A DNA stretch of 38,091 nucleotides. Origin: a virus. The stretch spans positions 1-38,091 of the IMG/VR virus record IMGVR_UViG_3300045972_000130; one strand, written 5' to 3'. Below the pieces are notes generated by a model that saw only the letters and a list, made by a program, of their open reading frames with translations, was not told the DNA's origin and ran no database searches. This document shows, piece after piece, positions 41 through 38,091 of the stretch (the stretch's first letter is position 1; the number at the start of each line of letters is the position of its first letter). A program made the position numbers and the translations under genes.

Positions 41-76
41 TCCAGTTTATTTTTTTTTTAAATTATAAAGGAGGGT

Positions 77-129
77 AAGCCTATGGTGGGGGAATGTACT
101 CATGATAACACCCCATAATGCCACGCAAC
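77..129. repeat. Left arm of 53-bp imperfect inverted repeat with AATGCC box
   Basis: Aligned with the reverse complement of 37905-37957, this arm keeps AAGCC, GGGGGA, GATAAC and AATGCCACGCAA at identical spacing (37 of 53 positions by eye). A second box, AATGCCAAGCAAC, lies at 138-150, 21 bp outward. It mirrors the box at 37884-37896, which is 21 bp outward from the right arm. The arms enclose the CCGTTGTA iterons and the A/T tract, an arrangement expected of an origin or a large operator. Confidence 0.8.
83..118 (+). CDS. Candidate 11-residue micro-ORF with strong ribosome site
   Basis: ATG at 83 follows AAAGGAGG (67-74) at ideal spacing. It opens an 11-codon frame (MVGECTHDNTP) ending in TAA at 116-118. 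It lies within the inverted-repeat arm, upstream of the first long gene. It could be a leader peptide, or the purine run could belong to the origin structure. There is no homology evidence. The same frame appears at 38047-38082 through the terminal repeat. Confidence 0.25.
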   Translation: MVGECTHDNTP

Positions 130-280
130 TCGGCCACAATGCCAAGCAACTACTCGCAACTATTCCAACTAATTCGGTTGACTACTCCTAACAATGCCAC
201 GATCATCTAACAACGGGGATTTTCTGTCGGAGTTCCCCTTAGCTTCAACCCGGCAACATTTCACAACTGAGGAACTAATT
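128..280. other. Leader and promoter region before the first long gene
   Basis: A noncoding stretch holding the outer AATGCCAAGCAAC box (138-150) and a third AATGCCAC box (193-200). The third box falls exactly between a possible -35 (TTGACT, 178-183) and -10 (GATCAT, 201-206) with a 17-bp spacer. This suggests that the box is an operator for a promoter of the gene at 281. The -10 is weak, so the promoter is tentative. Confidence 0.45.
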
Positions 281-721
281 ATGGCACGGCCAGATACTAA
301 AGACGAACAGACGATCCTCCAGAATCTCTGGATAATGGCGAACAAGCGCCCGGAGGGAGTTAACGTACCATGCGGGGATGCGTCGAGTGCTAAGCGCTTG
401 CGGTTCGCCCTCTACAACGCAGTTAAATATCATAAAGGTGTGGATGCGCGGCCCTGTAGTGAACAGCTATCCGATGCCATTGCCAACTGCAGTTTATCCT
501 TCACCGACGACGGGGCAGGGGTTATCATCCGGCAGAAGATCGCGACGAAGGTTAATCAGGCGATTCTATCCGTTCTCGGTGACTTCCCAATCCTGTCAGA
601 TGAAGATCGGCAGTTGCAGGAGTCCAGCCAACGGCTCTTGGAGCGAATCGAATCGGAGAATACCCACGACGTTTCACCACTGGCCACGGCGACCGCGATG
701 GCATACGGAGCCAGGAAATAA
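281..721 (+). CDS. Hypothetical protein, 146 aa
   Basis: I do not recognise this protein. I chose the ATG at 281 over the upstream ATG at 194 because GAGG (268-271 region) precedes it at good spacing, and the extra 29 residues of the longer reading cover the candidate promoter. The product is soluble, mixed charge and largely helical (for example residues about 15-60 and 95-135), with no signal peptide, membrane segment or catalytic motif that I can see. It is followed after one base by the next gene, so the two are co-translated. Being first after the origin-like locus suggests an early function, which is inference. Confidence 0.75.
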   Translation: MARPDTKDEQTILQNLWIMANKRPEGVNVPCGDASSAKRLRFALYNAVKYHKGVDARPCSEQLSDAIANCSLSFTDDGAGVIIRQKIATKVNQAILSVLGDFPILSDEDRQLQESSQRLLERIESENTHDVSPLATATAMAYGARK

Positions 722-10378: not shown

Positions 10379-11746
10379 ATGAGATTCATTAAGCTGTCCG
10401 AAATCGTTGTCAAGCCCGACCGCCAGCGCCAGGAATTCGACCCACAAGCGCTGCAAGACTTGGTCACCAGTATCGAATACAACGGTCTCCTGCACCCTAT
10501 CATACTGCGGCAGGAAGGCGATAAAATGGTGCTGGTTGCGGGGGAGCGTCGACTGAAAGCCATGTCTCAGATTTGGGAACTCGGCGGCAGCTTCCGCTGC
10601 GATAATGAGGAAGTGCCCGAGTGCTGCATCCCCTTTTCCAACATCGGGGAACTTTCCCTGCTCGACGCGGAAGAGGCCGAACTCGATGAGAATCTGAAAC
10701 GAAAGGACCTAACATGGCAGGAACACGCAGCGGCGGTGGCCCGGTTGCACAAACTCCGCGGTGCCCAGAAGGTAGAAACCAACAAGACTGCCCCAGTTGC
10801 GGAGCAGGTCCCTGTACAGACCTATGCAGATACGGCATTGGAGATACTCGGCAAATCCGATGGCGGTTATCAGGACCAGATCAGGAAGGAAATCCTCGTG
10901 TCGAAGCACCTGGACAACCCGGCGGTAGCGAAAGCGAAGTCAGCGGACGAGGCGTTCAAGATACTTAAAAAGCAGGAAGAGAGCGCAAAAAATGTCGAAC
11001 TTGCGCGCGTTGTCGGTGCATCCTTCAACTCCGACCTGCACCAGCTCATCAACATCAACTGCTTGGAATTCATGGCCAGCTGCGCTGAGGGCCCAGAGGA
11101 AAATAAGTTCGACGTCATCCTCACCGATCCTCCCTATGGCATGGGGGCAGACCAGTTCGGGGATGCCAACGGTCGCCTGGCTGGTATCGAACACCGCTAC
11201 GACGACTCCCCCGAGGCTTGGCGCGACCTAATGGGACTCTGGACAGTTTTGTCCTACCAAGTCTGCAAGCCGCAAGCTCACGCATACGTCTTCTGCGACA
11301 TTGATATGTTCCATGAACTAAAAGCTATGATGCAGAAGGCTGGCTGGTACGTCTTCCGCACTCCCTTCATCAACCACAAAATGAACTCTGGACGAGTTCC
11401 CCTCCCTGACCAAGGACCAAGGCGCCAATATGAAATCATTCTTTACGCGATCAAAGGGAAAAAGCAGACTACTCACATTTATCCAGATGTTATATCCACA
11501 TCTGCGGATGAGAACTTCTCTCACGGAGCCCAAAAACCCGTCGCACTTTACCAAAATCTTCTACAACGAAGCGTCCGACCTGGAGACCGAGTGCTTGATA
11601 CTTTCGCGGGCAGTGGAACAATATTCGAGGCGGCGAACGGATTTCAGTGCTCTGCAACAGGAACCGAACTCAACCCAGAATACTACGGAATGTGCCTCGC
11701 AAGAATCGCCAGATGTAAGGCCCTCGAGACCGCAGACCTTTTTTAG
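10379..11746 (+). CDS. ParB-like/DNA methyltransferase fusion, 455 aa
   Basis: Residues 1-120 are a ParB/Srx-type domain: a beta-rich opening, NGLLHPIILR (35-44), GERR at 55-58 and a DENLKRKDLTWQEHA-like helix near 103-117. Residues about 215-455 are a class-beta N6-adenine or N4-cytosine methyltransferase: DPPY at 250-253 (motif IV) precedes FAGSG at 409-413 (motif I), with KPVALYQNLL just before motif I. The methyl donor is S-adenosylmethionine. The ParB-like part may guide the enzyme to sites or act as an NTP-dependent switch. No partner restriction enzyme is nearby, so self-protection or regulation is likely. AAGGA lies before the ATG. Confidence 0.92.
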   Translation: MRFIKLSEIVVKPDRQRQEFDPQALQDLVTSIEYNGLLHPIILRQEGDKMVLVAGERRLKAMSQIWELGGSFRCDNEEVPECCIPFSNIGELSLLDAEEAELDENLKRKDLTWQEHAAAVARLHKLRGAQKVETNKTAPVAEQVPVQTYADTALEILGKSDGGYQDQIRKEILVSKHLDNPAVAKAKSADEAFKILKKQEESAKNVELARVVGASFNSDLHQLININCLEFMASCAEGPEENKFDVILTDPPYGMGADQFGDANGRLAGIEHRYDDSPEAWRDLMGLWTVLSYQVCKPQAHAYVFCDIDMFHELKAMMQKAGWYVFRTPFINHKMNSGRVPLPDQGPRRQYEIILYAIKGKKQTTHIYPDVISTSADENFSHGAQKPVALYQNLLQRSVRPGDRVLDTFAGSGTIFEAANGFQCSATGTELNPEYYGMCLARIARCKALETADLF

Positions 11747-11755
11747 AGAACTCCC

Positions 11756-14131
11756 ATGACAATAAGACCAACAGGTCCAGCTCCGGCTAGGATCATGATA
11801 GTAGGGGAAGCTCCGGGCGATCAGGAGATTCGAGAGAGTGCACCGTTTGTAGGCTACTCCGGTCAGGAGCTGTCGAGAATGCTGCAAGAAGCTGGGATCA
11901 TCCGTTCGACCTGCTTCATCACCAATGTCATCCGGATTAAACCTCCAGGTGGCGACATTGCGTCGTTCATTGCAGAGAAGAAATCTGCGATAACCCCACA
12001 ACACAAGCTAGTCCGCGACAAGTACTGTATGGCTCCGGTTTGGGAAGGCATTAGCCTACTGGAACGCGAGATCGAGATGGTCAAGCCTAACATCATCATC
12101 GCCCTTGGCAATGTTGCGATGTGGGCGCTGACGGGCAAGTGGGGCATCACCTCATGGCGGGGTTCCCTGCTCGAATGCAACCTAGCCCTGCAAGGCATGG
12201 ACCGTCCAGTAAAGGTAATCCCTGCCTACTCCCCAACAATGGTCATGCGGCAGTGGAGCTGGCGGCAGATACTCGTCCACGACCTGCGGCGGTGCAAAGC
12301 GCAAGGGGAGTACCCGGAGATTATCCGCCCGGATTACAAATTCATAATCCGCCCGGATTACGGCACGGCAGTAACCTACCTCCAGACCCTACTCCAACTG
12401 GTCGAGGCCAAGCCCACAACGTTGTCAGTTGACATCGAAACGCGCTCAGGGCATACTGCCTGTATCGGCATCGCGTGGAGTAAGTTAGAAGCGATCTGCA
12501 TCCCATTACTGTGCAGCGAACGTCAGACCGGCTACTGGACGGAGGACGAGGAAGCGTTCCTCACCTATCTGATGTACAAGCTGCTCACTCACAAGAATGC
12601 AGAGGTGATCGGGCAGAACTTTAGTTACGACGCCCAGTACTTCTTCCGTCATATGCACTTCCTCCCGAACCTCAAACGGGATACGATGATTGCCCAGCAC
12701 GTTTGTTTTAGCAATATGCAAAAAGGCCTGGATTTTCTCGCCTCCATGTACTGCGAATCCTACACCTACTGGAAAGAGGATGGCAAAACATGGGATGCCA
12801 ACACTGGTGAAGACCAGCTATGGTCCTACAACTGTCAAGACGCCGTTATCACCTTCGAGGTCGATGGGGTCGAGCAGCGCAATGTCGACGCAATGGGTCT
12901 CCGCCCAGTCCACGACTTCCAGCAAGCCCTCTTTTGGCCGGTGCTGCACACCATGAACAAGGGCCTCCGTGTAGACACATCTCGCCGCAACGCTTTCGCC
13001 CTCGAACTAATGGATGAAATCGCAGCCCGCGAGCAATGGATGATCGACGTACTCGGCGAGTCCCTCAACATCAAGTCCCCTAAACAAATGCAGGAGTTAT
13101 TCTATGGAGCCCTTGCCCAAAAGCCGATCCTTAATCGGAAAACCGGGACTGTCACCACTGATGATGAGGCTCTTGGTCGAATGGCTGATCGTGAACCAAT
13201 CCTACGACCCCTCGTCAAGAAAATTCAGGAACTTCGTTCACTTGGAGTTTTCCTCTCCACTTTCGTCAATGCACCTCTTGACGTGGATGGAAGAATGCGC
13301 TGCAGTTTTAACATCGCAGGGACTGACACCTATCGCTTTAGTTCATCCCAAAATGCATTCAACTCAGGACTTAACCTCCAGAACATCCCTAAAGGTGGTG
13401 GCGGAAAAGACCAACTACAGCTTCCAAACGTTCGATCTCTTTTCATTCCCGATCCCGGGAAAACCTTTTTCGACATCGACCTCGCTAGCGCTGACTTACG
13501 AATTGTCGTTTGGGAGTCAGACGAGCCCGAAATGAAGCGTATGCTGTTGGAAGGCTACGACCCGTATACTGAAATTGCCAAGGAATTCTACCATGACCCT
13601 ACGATCTCGAAAAAGGACCCTCGCCGTCAGACGTTCAAGGGCTTCGCACACGGTACAAACTATCTCGGAACGGCTAAGGGCCTTGCCGAACGGCTGGGTT
13701 TGGGAGTTGCCGAGGCAGAAAAAACGCAGCGATGGTACTTTAATCGTTTCCCAAAGATCAAGAAGTGGCAAGACGATCTTAAGGATCAAGTTGTCAAGCG
13801 TCGTATGGTGCAGAATATCTTTGGCTACCGCTGCTACTTCTTCGACCGCATTGAAGGCACAATATTCAACCAAGCGGCTGCGTGGATACCTCAATCAACT
13901 GTTGCGTGCCTAATCAACCGCGCTTACGTCGCCATCGACCGGGACTTGCCGCAGGTCGACATTCTCCTACAGGTGCATGACAGCCTGGCTGGACAATTCG
14001 ACACAACCCTCGGTGACTGGATGGTCAAGCAAATCGTAGACAAGGCGGAAATTCCTCTTCCCTACGATGACCCCTTAATCATCCCCGTGGGTGTGAAAAC
14101 TTCAACAGAAAGCTGGGGTGGCTGTGAATAA
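11756..14131 (+). CDS. Uracil-DNA glycosylase-like/family A DNA polymerase fusion, 791 aa
   Basis: Residues 1-180 are a family 4/5-like uracil-DNA glycosylase fold: GEAPGDQE (17-24), PFVGYSG (30-36), TNVIRIKPPGG (56-66) and AYSPTM (157-162). The usual His of the last motif is Ser, and the N-terminal cysteines of Fe-S enzymes are missing. Proofreading motifs follow: DIE at 226-228, N288..YD at 291-292, Y358..QDA at 361-363. Polymerase motif A is 571-582 (D575, with D580 where Klenow has Glu), motif B R624...K628.......Y636, motif C HDS at 741-743 instead of HDE. It should be the replicative polymerase; similar fusions occur in SPO1-like phages. The linker repeats IIRPDY. Confidence 0.93.
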   Translation: MTIRPTGPAPARIMIVGEAPGDQEIRESAPFVGYSGQELSRMLQEAGIIRSTCFITNVIRIKPPGGDIASFIAEKKSAITPQHKLVRDKYCMAPVWEGISLLEREIEMVKPNIIIALGNVAMWALTGKWGITSWRGSLLECNLALQGMDRPVKVIPAYSPTMVMRQWSWRQILVHDLRRCKAQGEYPEIIRPDYKFIIRPDYGTAVTYLQTLLQLVEAKPTTLSVDIETRSGHTACIGIAWSKLEAICIPLLCSERQTGYWTEDEEAFLTYLMYKLLTHKNAEVIGQNFSYDAQYFFRHMHFLPNLKRDTMIAQHVCFSNMQKGLDFLASMYCESYTYWKEDGKTWDANTGEDQLWSYNCQDAVITFEVDGVEQRNVDAMGLRPVHDFQQALFWPVLHTMNKGLRVDTSRRNAFALELMDEIAAREQWMIDVLGESLNIKSPKQMQELFYGALAQKPILNRKTGTVTTDDEALGRMADREPILRPLVKKIQELRSLGVFLSTFVNAPLDVDGRMRCSFNIAGTDTYRFSSSQNAFNSGLNLQNIPKGGGGKDQLQLPNVRSLFIPDPGKTFFDIDLASADLRIVVWESDEPEMKRMLLEGYDPYTEIAKEFYHDPTISKKDPRRQTFKGFAHGTNYLGTAKGLAERLGLGVAEAEKTQRWYFNRFPKIKKWQDDLKDQVVKRRMVQNIFGYRCYFFDRIEGTIFNQAAAWIPQSTVACLINRAYVAIDRDLPQVDILLQVHDSLAGQFDTTLGDWMVKQIVDKAEIPLPYDDPLIIPVGVKTSTESWGGCE

Positions 14132-14795: not shown

Positions 14796-16019
14796 ATGGC
14801 TCGCAAATACGGAGACTGGTTAAGCGGCTTTCTCGAGTACGCGGAGTTCGGGGAAGCGCCAAGGCATATGTACTTTTGGGCGGGAGTTTCCGCCGTTGCT
14901 GGTGCCCTTCGCCGCAAAGTCTGGATAGATCAGGCTTACTTCAAGTGGTACCCAAACTTCTACATCTGTCTAGTTGCCCCTCCCGGTATTGTTTCCAAAT
15001 CCACGACGGCTGGCGTCGCTATGAGTTTACTGCGGAAAGTACCTGGGATCAAATTTGGGCCGGACGTGGTTACTTGGCCCGCACTCGTTTCCGCGTTTGC
15101 GGAAGCCACCGAGGGCTTCGAACACGATGGAGCGATGTACCCTATGTCCGCAATGACCTTGGAAAGCTCCGAATTCGGAAATTTGCTAAACCCGCAAGAC
15201 AAGGAAATGGTGGACCTGCTCGTCAGCTTGTGGGATGGAAAGCAAGGCAGTTTCGAGAAGTCTACCAAACACTCCGGAAAGGATACCGTTGAAAACCCTT
15301 GGATCAACCTCATCGCGTGCACGACTCCAGCGTGGATTGCGGGCAATTTTCCTGAGTACATGGTTGGAGGCGGTTTCACCTCCCGGACCATCTTCGTTTA
15401 CGCTGATGCGAAGCAGCGCTATGTGGCCTACCCCGGACTTCGGGTTCCGAAGGACCTTGAGGCACAGGCGAATAACCTCGTTGTGGACCTCGAGGATATA
15501 TCAAAGCTTCACGGAGAGTATAAGCTTACCAAGGCCGCGGTGGATTTTGGTGAGGAATGGTATCACCAGCACTATTCCATACGGGCGGCCAATCTGGACC
15601 CTGACCGGTTTGGTGGCTATATCGCGCGGAAGCAGACACATATCCACAAGCTTGCTATGGTACTATCCGCCTCGCAGGGGGACTCCATGCTAATCACGCC
15701 AGAGCATCTCGCAACCGCACACCAGATGGTGACAGACTTGGAGCCCGATATGCAATTCGTTTTCAGTAAGATCGGAAGGTCCGACGCCAGTCTCCACGCG
15801 GAGCGGTTGATCAGTTTCGTCCAGACCAAGGGGGAGGTCGGATTCCAAGAGGCTTACCGGTACGTCCATTCTCACTTCTCCAGTATGAGGGATTTCGAGG
15901 ATGTGCTGGCCGGGATAGTCCGAGCCGGATTCCTGTTACTCTCCAGCAAAAATGGGATGCCGACCCTAAAGCCAGGCATCCCCCTACCAACCGCAACCAA
16001 TGGAGCTGCTCGTGTTTAA
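14796..16019 (+). CDS. DUF3987-like P-loop ATPase, possible helicase, 407 aa
   Basis: Starts immediately after the methylase-like stop, with GGAGG upstream. The opening (WLSGFLEYAEFGEAPRHMYF, then a helix ending GALRRKVWID) and LVAPPGIVSKST (59-70) match the DUF3987 group. Its P-loop is unusual, GIVSKS rather than GxxGxGKS. A likely Walker B/acidic segment is 119-128 (AMTLESSEFG), and GGGFTSRTIF near 196-205 may hold an arginine finger. Family members are often annotated as phage replication helicase or primase partners. It is the only candidate replicative motor beside the Dda-like helicase. It is the last gene of the rightward operon, 2 bp from the convergent late gene. Confidence 0.78.
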   Translation: MARKYGDWLSGFLEYAEFGEAPRHMYFWAGVSAVAGALRRKVWIDQAYFKWYPNFYICLVAPPGIVSKSTTAGVAMSLLRKVPGIKFGPDVVTWPALVSAFAEATEGFEHDGAMYPMSAMTLESSEFGNLLNPQDKEMVDLLVSLWDGKQGSFEKSTKHSGKDTVENPWINLIACTTPAWIAGNFPEYMVGGGFTSRTIFVYADAKQRYVAYPGLRVPKDLEAQANNLVVDLEDISKLHGEYKLTKAAVDFGEEWYHQHYSIRAANLDPDRFGGYIARKQTHIHKLAMVLSASQGDSMLITPEHLATAHQMVTDLEPDMQFVFSKIGRSDASLHAERLISFVQTKGEVGFQEAYRYVHSHFSSMRDFEDVLAGIVRAGFLLLSSKNGMPTLKPGIPLPTATNGAARV

Positions 16020-35971: not shown

Positions 35972-36565
35972 TTATTCTCCTAAAGTTGTAGGTTCTGGCG
36001 GGAGCATGACTGCTTCGCAGATAGGCATCATCGCGCCGAGGCCGGGTGTGCGCTGACTGATATGCTGATGCATTGCCGCCCAGTCCTCCGGGCTCTGCAC
36101 CTTGGTCGGCATCGCCACGACGAAGTTCGTCTGCACGTTGAGGTTCTGCTGGCGAGCTCCATAGCCGAGGGCTTTGCTACTCAGCTCCAGTGCCTTCAGC
36201 GCCGTATCGGGGTTTTTCGTAACCGTCAGCTTCTCCATTATAATATCGAGAGACTGATTTGCGAGAGCGCGAAACTTTTCATCCAGCGTCAACGCGATGG
36301 AGGGGTCTACCAGATCCCTCTTTCTCTCGGCCAGCCGTGCCAAGAACGCGTCGCTGTTGACAACCCGGGAAACCCAGGCTTGCGTGTAGCCGAACTGCTG
36401 TGCCAAGTCGCCTTGCTTGATTTCAGGGTTGGCAATCATCAGGTCGATCATCGCGTCGTGTGAGTATTTCACCCGCTGAATGGCCAGCGCCGCGCTTTCC
36501 GTTCCGGCGAGGGGCTTGCTTTGCTGACGTACCCAATCGTCGATTGCTGCTGTGGGGTCATCCAT
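35972..36565 (-). CDS. terS: Terminase small subunit, 197 aa
   Basis: Start at 36565 (MDDPTAAIDDW) has GGAG seven bases upstream; the longer frame to 36634 would overlap the late promoter. A helix-turn-helix at about residues 50-70 (KQGDLAQQFGYTQAWVSRVV) would recognise the packaging site. The central helices (90-135, LDEKFRALANQSLDIIMEKL) would form the ring, and the C terminus contacts the large subunit. It is the first gene of the late operon, 20 nt from the predicted transcript start. Confidence 0.85.
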   Translation of the reverse strand: MDDPTAAIDDWVRQQSKPLAGTESAALAIQRVKYSHDAMIDLMIANPEIKQGDLAQQFGYTQAWVSRVVNSDAFLARLAERKRDLVDPSIALTLDEKFRALANQSLDIIMEKLTVTKNPDTALKALELSSKALGYGARQQNLNVQTNFVVAMPTKVQSPEDWAAMHQHISQRTPGLGAMMPICEAVMLPPEPTTLGE

Positions 36566-36590
36566 GGGAGGCTCCGGTTGATTAGGGCAC

Positions 36591-36619
36591 AGCGTAGCAG
36601 ACTTATCGCCCCCTGTCAA
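36591..36619 (-). promoter_or_regulatory. Late promoter candidate, leftward
   Basis: On the minus strand TTGACA (36619-36614), 17-bp spacer, TACGCT (36596-36591). The -35 is perfect and the -10 is weak (3 of 6), as expected for a promoter that needs an activator. The dyad at 36635-36654 lies about 16 bp upstream of the -35, a natural activator position. Predicted start near 36584 gives a leader of about 20 nt to the small terminase. Confidence 0.55.
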
Positions 36620-36634
36620 GCCCGAAACACCCAC

Positions 36635-36860: not shown

Positions 36861-36952
36861 ACCAGGCAGTCAGAAAAAAACCAGGCGGTCAGAAAAAATA
36901 CTAAGTAGTCACAAACTGGTGTCAACTATTCCGACTGGTGTCGAGATACCTT
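36861..36952. repeat. Iteron array of 19-bp repeats
   Basis: Two 19-bp copies (36861-36879 and 36880-36898) differ at one base; a degenerate third (ACTAAGTAGTCACAAA) starts at 36900. Two ACTGGTGTC copies follow at 36915 and 36934, again 19 bp apart. A leftward TTGACA at 36925-36920 with TAGTAT about 16 bp further falls inside the array. Iterons of this type bind a replication initiator or repressor. Confidence 0.75.
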
Positions 36953-37116: not shown

Positions 37117-37641
37117 ATGACAAACGAAATTACACGCACGCCAGCCATTAATGCAACGGTCGATATGGAAAATGTGAATGATCCTACGCTGACCCTCATA
37201 TTTGGTAATGGCGAGGTTCTGTGTATCATGGCGCATCAATTGACGGTAGAACTGGCCCAGACCGCTATGATGCATGGACTGAAGCAGAAATTAGTCGATG
37301 CTGCCGCTATTAGTCGAAACCCCGACACCGGACGCACAGCTTCCGTGGATGATAAATACAACGCAGTGAAGGAGGTTTTTGACCGTCTGATTGCTGGCCA
37401 GTGGAATAAACAACGCGACGGCGCTGGCGCGACCAAGGGAGGCTTGTTGTTCCGTGCGCTGTGTATGTTGTACGCCGATAAAACCCCAGATGCTATCAAG
37501 GCATTTCTGGACAAGAAAACTGCCACGGAAAAAACTGCACTACGCAACACAGCGAAAATCGCTGCCATCATTGCAACCCTCAAGGAGGATGATGACAACG
37601 GCGATGTTGACGTGGACGCTATGCTGGATGAGCTGAACTAG
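37117..37641 (+). CDS. Conserved phage protein, 174 aa, paralogue of the 1213 gene
   Basis: GAGG lies 7 nt before the ATG. First gene of the rightward early operon. The N-terminal half is divergent (MTNEITRTPAINATVDMENV), but residues 95-174 match the 1213-1755 protein: GQWNKQRDG, DAIKAFLDKKTATEKTALRN, TAKIAAII and the final DVDAMLDELN. Both have short acidic ends. Function unknown. It is followed by a perfect intrinsic terminator, so it is an independent, probably abundant, early product. Divergence of the N terminus suggests a changed partner or ligand. Confidence 0.85.
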   Translation: MTNEITRTPAINATVDMENVNDPTLTLIFGNGEVLCIMAHQLTVELAQTAMMHGLKQKLVDAAAISRNPDTGRTASVDDKYNAVKEVFDRLIAGQWNKQRDGAGATKGGLLFRALCMLYADKTPDAIKAFLDKKTATEKTALRNTAKIAAIIATLKEDDDNGDVDVDAMLDELN

Positions 37642-37660
37642 TTCCCCCGAATCCCCAAGG

Positions 37661-37685
37661 AGCCCCGCATAGTCGGGGCTTTTTT
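37661..37685 (+). terminator. Intrinsic terminator after the 37117 gene
   Basis: AGCCCCG (37661-37667), 6-nt loop, CGGGGCT (37674-37680), then six T (37680-37685). A textbook rho-independent terminator, 20 nt after the stop codon. Confidence 0.92.
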
Positions 37686-37726: not shown

Positions 37727-37883
37727 GACCGGAAAATGGACCCCGATTCTATCCCCCGATGCCGTTTAAACCGATTCTATGGCACCATACGGCCACGCGC
37801 CACCCGAGCTGGTACATTAGTATGCAAAACCCGGATCGTTCATTTAAACCCCCAAAAACCAGGATTGTGTAACAAGCTGGCCA

Positions 37884-37957
37884 GTTGCGTGGCATTGTAG
37901 AGCTTTTGCGTGGCATTTTCACGGGTTATCAGATGTATGCTCCCCCGCCTATGGCTT
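37884..37957. repeat. Right arm of origin-like inverted repeat, with two AATGCC boxes
   Basis: GTTGCGTGGCATT (37884-37896) and TTTGCGTGGCATT (37905-37917) are reverse complements of the boxes at 138-150 and 117-129, with the same 21-bp spacing. GTTATC at 37925-37930 lies 7 bp from the inner box, exactly as GATAAC does in the left arm. The arm ends at GGCTT (37953-37957). Confidence 0.8.
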
Positions 37958-37964
37958 TCCATTC

Positions 37965-38091
37965 CCGTTGTACCGTTGTACCGTTGTACCGTTGTACCGT
38001 TGTATCCAGTTTATTTTTTTTTTAAATTATAAAGGAGGGTAAGCCTATGGTGGGGGAATGTACTCATGATAACACCCCATAATGCCACGCA
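37965..38091. repeat. Terminal direct repeat, right copy
   Basis: Exact copy of 1-127, containing the five CCGTTGTA units (37965-38004), the A/T tract and the strong Shine-Dalgarno with micro-ORF (38047-38082). Confidence 0.95.

Follow-up and report, generated by a model that had tools for sequence, protein, structure and literature searches.

What does a podovirus-like phage do with a non-coding spot of its genome in which arrays of short boxes stand in mirror image on both sides of an A/T-rich centre? This question is raised by the virus record IMGVR_UViG_3300045972_000130 of IMG/VR, of which the whole stretch analysed here, 38,091 nucleotides long, is called the window. The initial annotation of this DNA had proposed a replication origin or a large regulatory complex, a reading that fits the evidence and is partly supported by the conserved architecture of the locus and by its co-occurrence with the gene of a DUF3987 protein. 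Our results suggest that the locus is probably an origin of replication with a new arrangement, no description of which was found in the open-licence literature searched.

Mirrored box arrays at the junction of the circle

Positions 1-127 of the window are identical to 37965-38091, and both ends hold one copy of the dyad core. This 127-bp terminal repeat is most likely an assembler overlap, and once it is removed the true circle is 37,964 bp. The features of the locus and of its surroundings are as follows.

37117..37641, plus strand: gZ, the conserved left neighbour, transcribed toward the dyad locus
37660..37685, plus strand: terminator-like hairpin with a T run downstream of gZ, identified by eye; recurs in relatives
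37883..37973, no strand: left arm by gapped alignment, 41-131 bp left of the T tract
37885..37896, minus strand: left outer box (TTGCGTGGCATT on the plus strand)
37906..37917, minus strand: left inner box (TTGCGTGGCATT on the plus strand), 21 bp from the left outer box
37925..37930, minus strand: GTTATC, 7 bp from the left inner box
37942..37949, plus strand: C-rich left shoulder CCCCCGCC, a feature of the phage family
37965..38004, plus strand: five CCGTTGTA units, same DNA as 1-40
50..59, plus strand: T10 tract, the dyad centre, same DNA as 38014-38023
64..151, no strand: right arm, including the G-rich shoulder at 70-93
104..109, plus strand: GATAAC, 7 bp from the right inner box
117..128, plus strand: right inner box AATGCCACGCAA
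138..149, plus strand: right outer box AATGCCAAGCAA, 21 bp outward of the right inner box
178..206, plus strand: early promoter candidate TTGACT-17-GATCAT
281..721, plus strand: gA, first early gene; its start is put at 281, in agreement with the promoter, and at 194 in the ORF list
14796..16019, plus strand: DUF3987 (PF13148) putative helicase, proposed as the initiator; its gene co-occurs with the dyad

The boxes, the 21-bp spacing and the 7-bp gaps that the initial annotation had described were all found in place, as were the five CCGTTGTA units and the T tract inside the arms. Its 53-bp imperfect inverted arms match at 37/53 positions and belong to the strongest dyad of the genome; indeed, a dyad scan of the whole circle placed the junction locus first with a score of 62, for a mean of 17.3 and a next best score of 31. 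With gaps allowed, the symmetry reaches 131 bp to the left and 92 bp to the right of the T tract, and the arms score 66 in local alignment against 21.7 +/- 3.1 in dinucleotide shuffles (maximum 32 in 200). The box TGCCACGCAA with at most one mismatch occurs 9 times in the genome for 3.8 expected and is not very rare alone, the significance being carried by symmetry and spacing and not by the small box itself. A protelomerase-type telomere resolution site was also considered and is not supported, as the centre is not palindromic by eye. Note that a second conserved stretch, GAGCTGGTA..TTAGTA, lies left of the dyad at 37762-37850 and is flanked in relatives by GGCGTTTT/AAACGCC-like inverted arms.

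Genes and promoters on both sides of the dyad

Late genes run leftward from 36634 and early genes rightward from ~281. Composition skew changes sign at the dyad, in step with gene orientation, and GC skew is mixed; the strand skew that had been proposed as a check for an origin is compatible with the dyad locus but not diagnostic. The hairpin at 37660..37685 was not reported by a consensus terminator scan. On the other side, most relatives also have a TTGAC -35 element, ~110-185 bp to the right of the T tract. A regulator of the phage or of its host, bound to the phased boxes, could loop or wrap the DNA and control the 178-206 promoter, since the right array stands just upstream of this conserved promoter at a fairly constant distance and helical phasing is typical of cooperative regulators. 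We nevertheless consider such an operator or enhancer unlikely as the explanation of the locus: it accounts neither for the A/T core nor for the left array, the mirror image of the right one, which looks onto the end of gZ with no strong leftward promoter on that side, and relatives that have no DUF3987 gene keep the early genes and lose the dyad. Control of the early promoter may be an added role of the dyad.

Several neighbouring proteins were examined. The paralogues gC (1189-1755) and gZ (37117-37641) are kept in relatives, gC being ~50-87% identical, and they matched no family in Pfam or PHROG and no fold clearly, including in a structure search with the gC model (pLDDT 86). For gA, the search with an AlphaFold model (pLDDT 86) gave a best VIA match of low score (Z 4.9), to a probable RNA-binding protein of the R3H/KhpB type; its homologues mostly end in a conserved NPYY-R tail, and the window copy ends differently. 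As an arm-binding protein gA was discarded, because an apparent gA, identified by eye, in the dyad-less genome G012 means that it does not track the dyad. An HTH protein (35972-36634, minus strand) adjoins the terminase and may be a small terminase subunit or a regulator; it was rejected as the dyad partner, being present in dyad-positive and dyad-negative genomes with a tree devoid of resolution. A leftward promoter candidate (TTGACA-16-TAGTAT, 36898-36925) lies between gZ and the first late gene. The window phage also encodes a PolA (11756-14131) in which an N-terminal uracil-DNA-glycosylase-like domain is fused to exonuclease and polymerase, together with a Dda-like helicase and Sak4.

The same plan with unrelated sequences in relatives

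Relatives were collected through TerL, gC and gZ, the nearest annotated record to the window phage being MW202489. Their gZ-gA spacers display unrelated sequence on the same plan, which runs from outer direct repeats through a C-rich shoulder, a T7-T12 tract and a G-rich shoulder to the same repeats in mirror image. Own-left against own-right arm scores range from 54 to 163 in 26/27 T-tract genomes, compared to ~23 +/- 4 in shuffles (45 for the C-rich L169) and ~25 in cross-genome pairs, which score high only between close pairs (e.g., L144/L149). A scan free of the T-tract assumption added dyads to the set; in some of them, the core contains an A tract or A/T palindromes. In 52 flanks, direct 5-mer repeats peak at 10, 11, 21 and 22 bp (z 16, 18, 13 and 8, descriptive values since the flanks come from related genomes) and show nothing at 13-18 bp, which places the boxes on one helix face. 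Direct repeats in helical phase and an A/T-rich element beside them, both expected of an iteron origin, are thus found, the former in the 52 flanks and the latter as the T7-T12 or A-tract core of the dyad members. What relatives keep of the boxes, the ~21-bp spacing and the symmetry is therefore the architecture, but not the box sequence. Indeed, neither the exact box AATGCCANGCAA nor conserved tandem units upstream of the terminase were found in relatives, because only the symmetry is conserved, and exact GATAAC-N5-9-AATGCCACGCAA gave 7 matches in viral contigs, none of them among the terminase-found relatives.

The arms could also be thought to pair with each other, as a structured RNA or an extruded cruciform, given a long imperfect inverted repeat that is 74.5% symmetric over 26 genomes. 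Arm mismatches, however, show no clear G-U excess on either strand (164 vs 146) and include 414 transversions, and this lack of wobble-pair preference favours double-stranded DNA sites over an RNA hairpin. Moreover, gaps and repeats shift freely, the helical period of the direct repeats is left unexplained and no Rfam family matched, so that we regard pairing of the arms, already weakened, as highly improbable.

Within the core, the initial annotation had taken the CCGTTGTA units as the iterons. The units are real, but only 8/26 genomes have a TTGTA element in the 70 bp to the left of the T tract (1-5 copies, vs 0.04 expected); CCGTTGTA is accordingly a variable core element, and the mirrored, helically phased arm boxes appear more likely to be the iterons. 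Perfect DnaA boxes TTATCCACA occur in the spacer of one clade, with 3 in L144 and 2 in L159; they are clustered there, two of them 11 bp apart. The window contains no exact DnaA box, and therefore not the box cluster of a DnaA-dependent oriC.

The window contig begins exactly at the first CCGTTGTA unit, and 4 full-length contigs are cut in the spacer for 0.8 expected. The ends of the cut contigs overlap and differ by one base, by poly-C length or by repeat number, which suggests that population polymorphism broke the assembly at the spacer; judging from contig ends rather than from reads, the dyad locus would vary within populations. These overlapping ends with small differences were not retained as proof of physical genome ends.

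Co-occurrence with the DUF3987 gene

The near-complete genomes number 32, of which 18 have a DUF3987 gene and 14 have none; the dyad was found in 18/18 of the former and in 0/14 gZ-gA spacers of the latter. G030 was counted as dyad-positive by inspection, since gZ is inverted there and the genome first looked exceptional. All 14 DUF3987-negative relatives retain PolA, Dda and Sak4, and in those that were read the late genes come directly after PolA. G019 holds the dyad and the DUF3987 gene with a PolA inside the dyad-less clade (support 100/100), so that dyad and helicase changed together at least twice, and the PolA tree gives the co-occurrence a basis of about two independent events. It had been anticipated that relatives with the same early genes and no such structure would speak against the origin. 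Relatives of this kind do exist, but they are those without DUF3987, which links the structure to the helicase rather than refuting the origin. G016, which has no DUF3987 gene, carries, to the left of gZ, a different array, also mirrored and phased, whose core measures 217 bp; this array (L281, 4984-5357) consists of inverted phased TTAACA repeats and is possibly another origin type. No DUF3987 relative was found in the plasmids searched.

The same genomes bear on two other explanations. A pac or cos packaging signal, or a physical genome end recognised by terminase, would agree with the excess of contigs cut in the spacer and with a large-terminase gene 2 kb from the locus, and phased arrays occur at some pac/cos sites. 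A packaging site should travel with the terminase, whereas G015 shares TerL, portal and capsid but has neither dyad nor DUF3987, and G019 and G030 have both with no recognisable TerL; the dyad does not track virion genes and this, together with cut ends whose small differences suggest polymorphism, makes packaging improbable. Likewise, a partition or DNA-organising site resembling a centromere might be imagined, as phased arrays resemble centromere arrays and the window encodes a ParB-N domain fused to an N6/N4 adenine DNA methyltransferase (10379-11746). Nevertheless, the fusion is also kept in DUF3987-negative, dyad-less relatives and the searches run gave no ParA, and we give this explanation very little credence.

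Beyond the relatives, distant DUF3987 phages often have their top dyad at the boundary of early and late genes. The strongest of these out-group dyads are those of MW202554 (104), vir526 (74) and a Desulfofustis phage (69), followed by weaker ones in the Microcystis phage Mel-JY34 (48, T9 core), in Tiera (44) and in the Vibrio phage VS-ABTNL-3 (43, T8 core). The top dyads of control genomes without DUF3987, G016 aside, reach z values of 5.5-8.7, so that by score only those of MW202554, vir526 and the Desulfofustis phage are distinct. No 10-11 bp period was found in the out-group arms, and PaP2, 119X, Kuura and the partial EBPR3, all DUF3987 phages, showed no clear dyad. The MW202554 dyad core (L304, 35849-35937) also contains TTATCCACA.

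Comparison with known origins

At the origins of staphylococcal pathogenicity islands (SaPI), an A/T-rich region lies between iteron sets. The SaPI Rep and SCCmec Cch2 proteins are self-loading helicases that recognise short iterons, 5 nt long for Cch2, and SaPIbov1 Rep contains DUF927, two hexamers having been proposed (PMC7581432). The likeness of the phage locus to these systems (Rep, Cch, Cch2) lies in the short iterons and in an initiator that is itself a helicase, as is proposed here. In contrast, the window phage has longer mirrored arms, C-rich and G-rich shoulders, a genome-specific box sequence and a dyad ~15 kb from the helicase gene, and its DUF3987 (PF13148) is of a different ATPase family from the DUF927 or D5/Primase_Cterm helicases that define the SaPI/SCCmec type. 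The phage locus may thus work like an origin of that type, though it is not a member.

In iteron plasmids, cooperativity needs the correct helical phase (PMC4980987). Those such as RK2, R6K, F and P1 share with the phage locus direct repeats beside an A/T-rich unwinding element; their iterons, however, are 17-22 bp long and read by winged-helix Rep proteins, whereas the phage arrays are made of short boxes, spaced by one turn in many genomes, that stand in mirror image on the two sides. Lambda-type origins have O-protein iterons next to an A/T-rich segment. These iterons lie inside the O gene and on one side of the A/T region, and no O-like protein was found in the window phage. Herpesvirus and papillomavirus origins have mirrored initiator sites around an A/T core, an analogy only, as the proteins and organisms are unrelated.

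A candidate origin and its likely initiator

Altogether, we favour with fair confidence the reading of the dyad locus as a replication origin used by the DUF3987 helicase. This reading relies on the position of the genome's strongest dyad, in the non-coding DNA that separates gZ from the early promoter, on the recurrence in relatives of the same plan and helical repeat period with unrelated boxes, on a co-occurrence with DUF3987 (G019 included) and not with terminase, on the early/late location of the top dyad in distant DUF3987 phages, on the perfect DnaA boxes in the spacer of one clade, and on the helicase prediction for DUF3987 combined with the SaPI Rep/Cch2 literature. We counted against it the DUF3987 phages PaP2, 119X, Kuura and EBPR3 with no clear dyad, the G016 array without DUF3987, a co-occurrence of about two independent events, weaker out-group dyads that are non-significant by score alone, out-group arms with no 10-11 bp period, a skew that follows gene orientation and a DUF3987 C-terminus in which no DNA-binding domain was matched in Pfam.

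DUF3987 is a predicted replicative helicase family, which replaces known helicases next to primases (PMC5862659). In the mechanism that we propose, the initiator, most likely the DUF3987 helicase, would bind the phased boxes in many copies, on one helix face per arm, possibly through the C-terminal part of DUF3987; this end is the most variable of the protein and, judged from its sequence alone, is possibly winged-helix-like. The mirrored arrays would place two helicase assemblies face to face, one on each side of the core. Opening of the oligo(T)/A+T core would follow, one helicase would be loaded per direction, and the phage PolA would then replicate bidirectionally. About evenly balanced, in our judgement, is the broader proposal of a new phage origin class, in which short-iteron arrays, helically phased and mirrored on the two sides of an oligo(T) core, with a fast-changing box sequence and arms that change in concert, would be loaded directly by sequence-specific DUF3987 helicases that move together with the origin between lineages.

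Few lytic phages have mapped replication start sites, and DUF3987 proteins are helicases by prediction only. In this context, the dyad defines, at the level of sequence, a candidate origin that tens of uncultivated phages share, and it comes with a likely initiator, both being directly testable. It also represents a DNA element whose mirror sides stay matched while the sequence turns over, and such matched-arm turnover offers a clear case for initiator-site co-evolution or concerted change at an origin.
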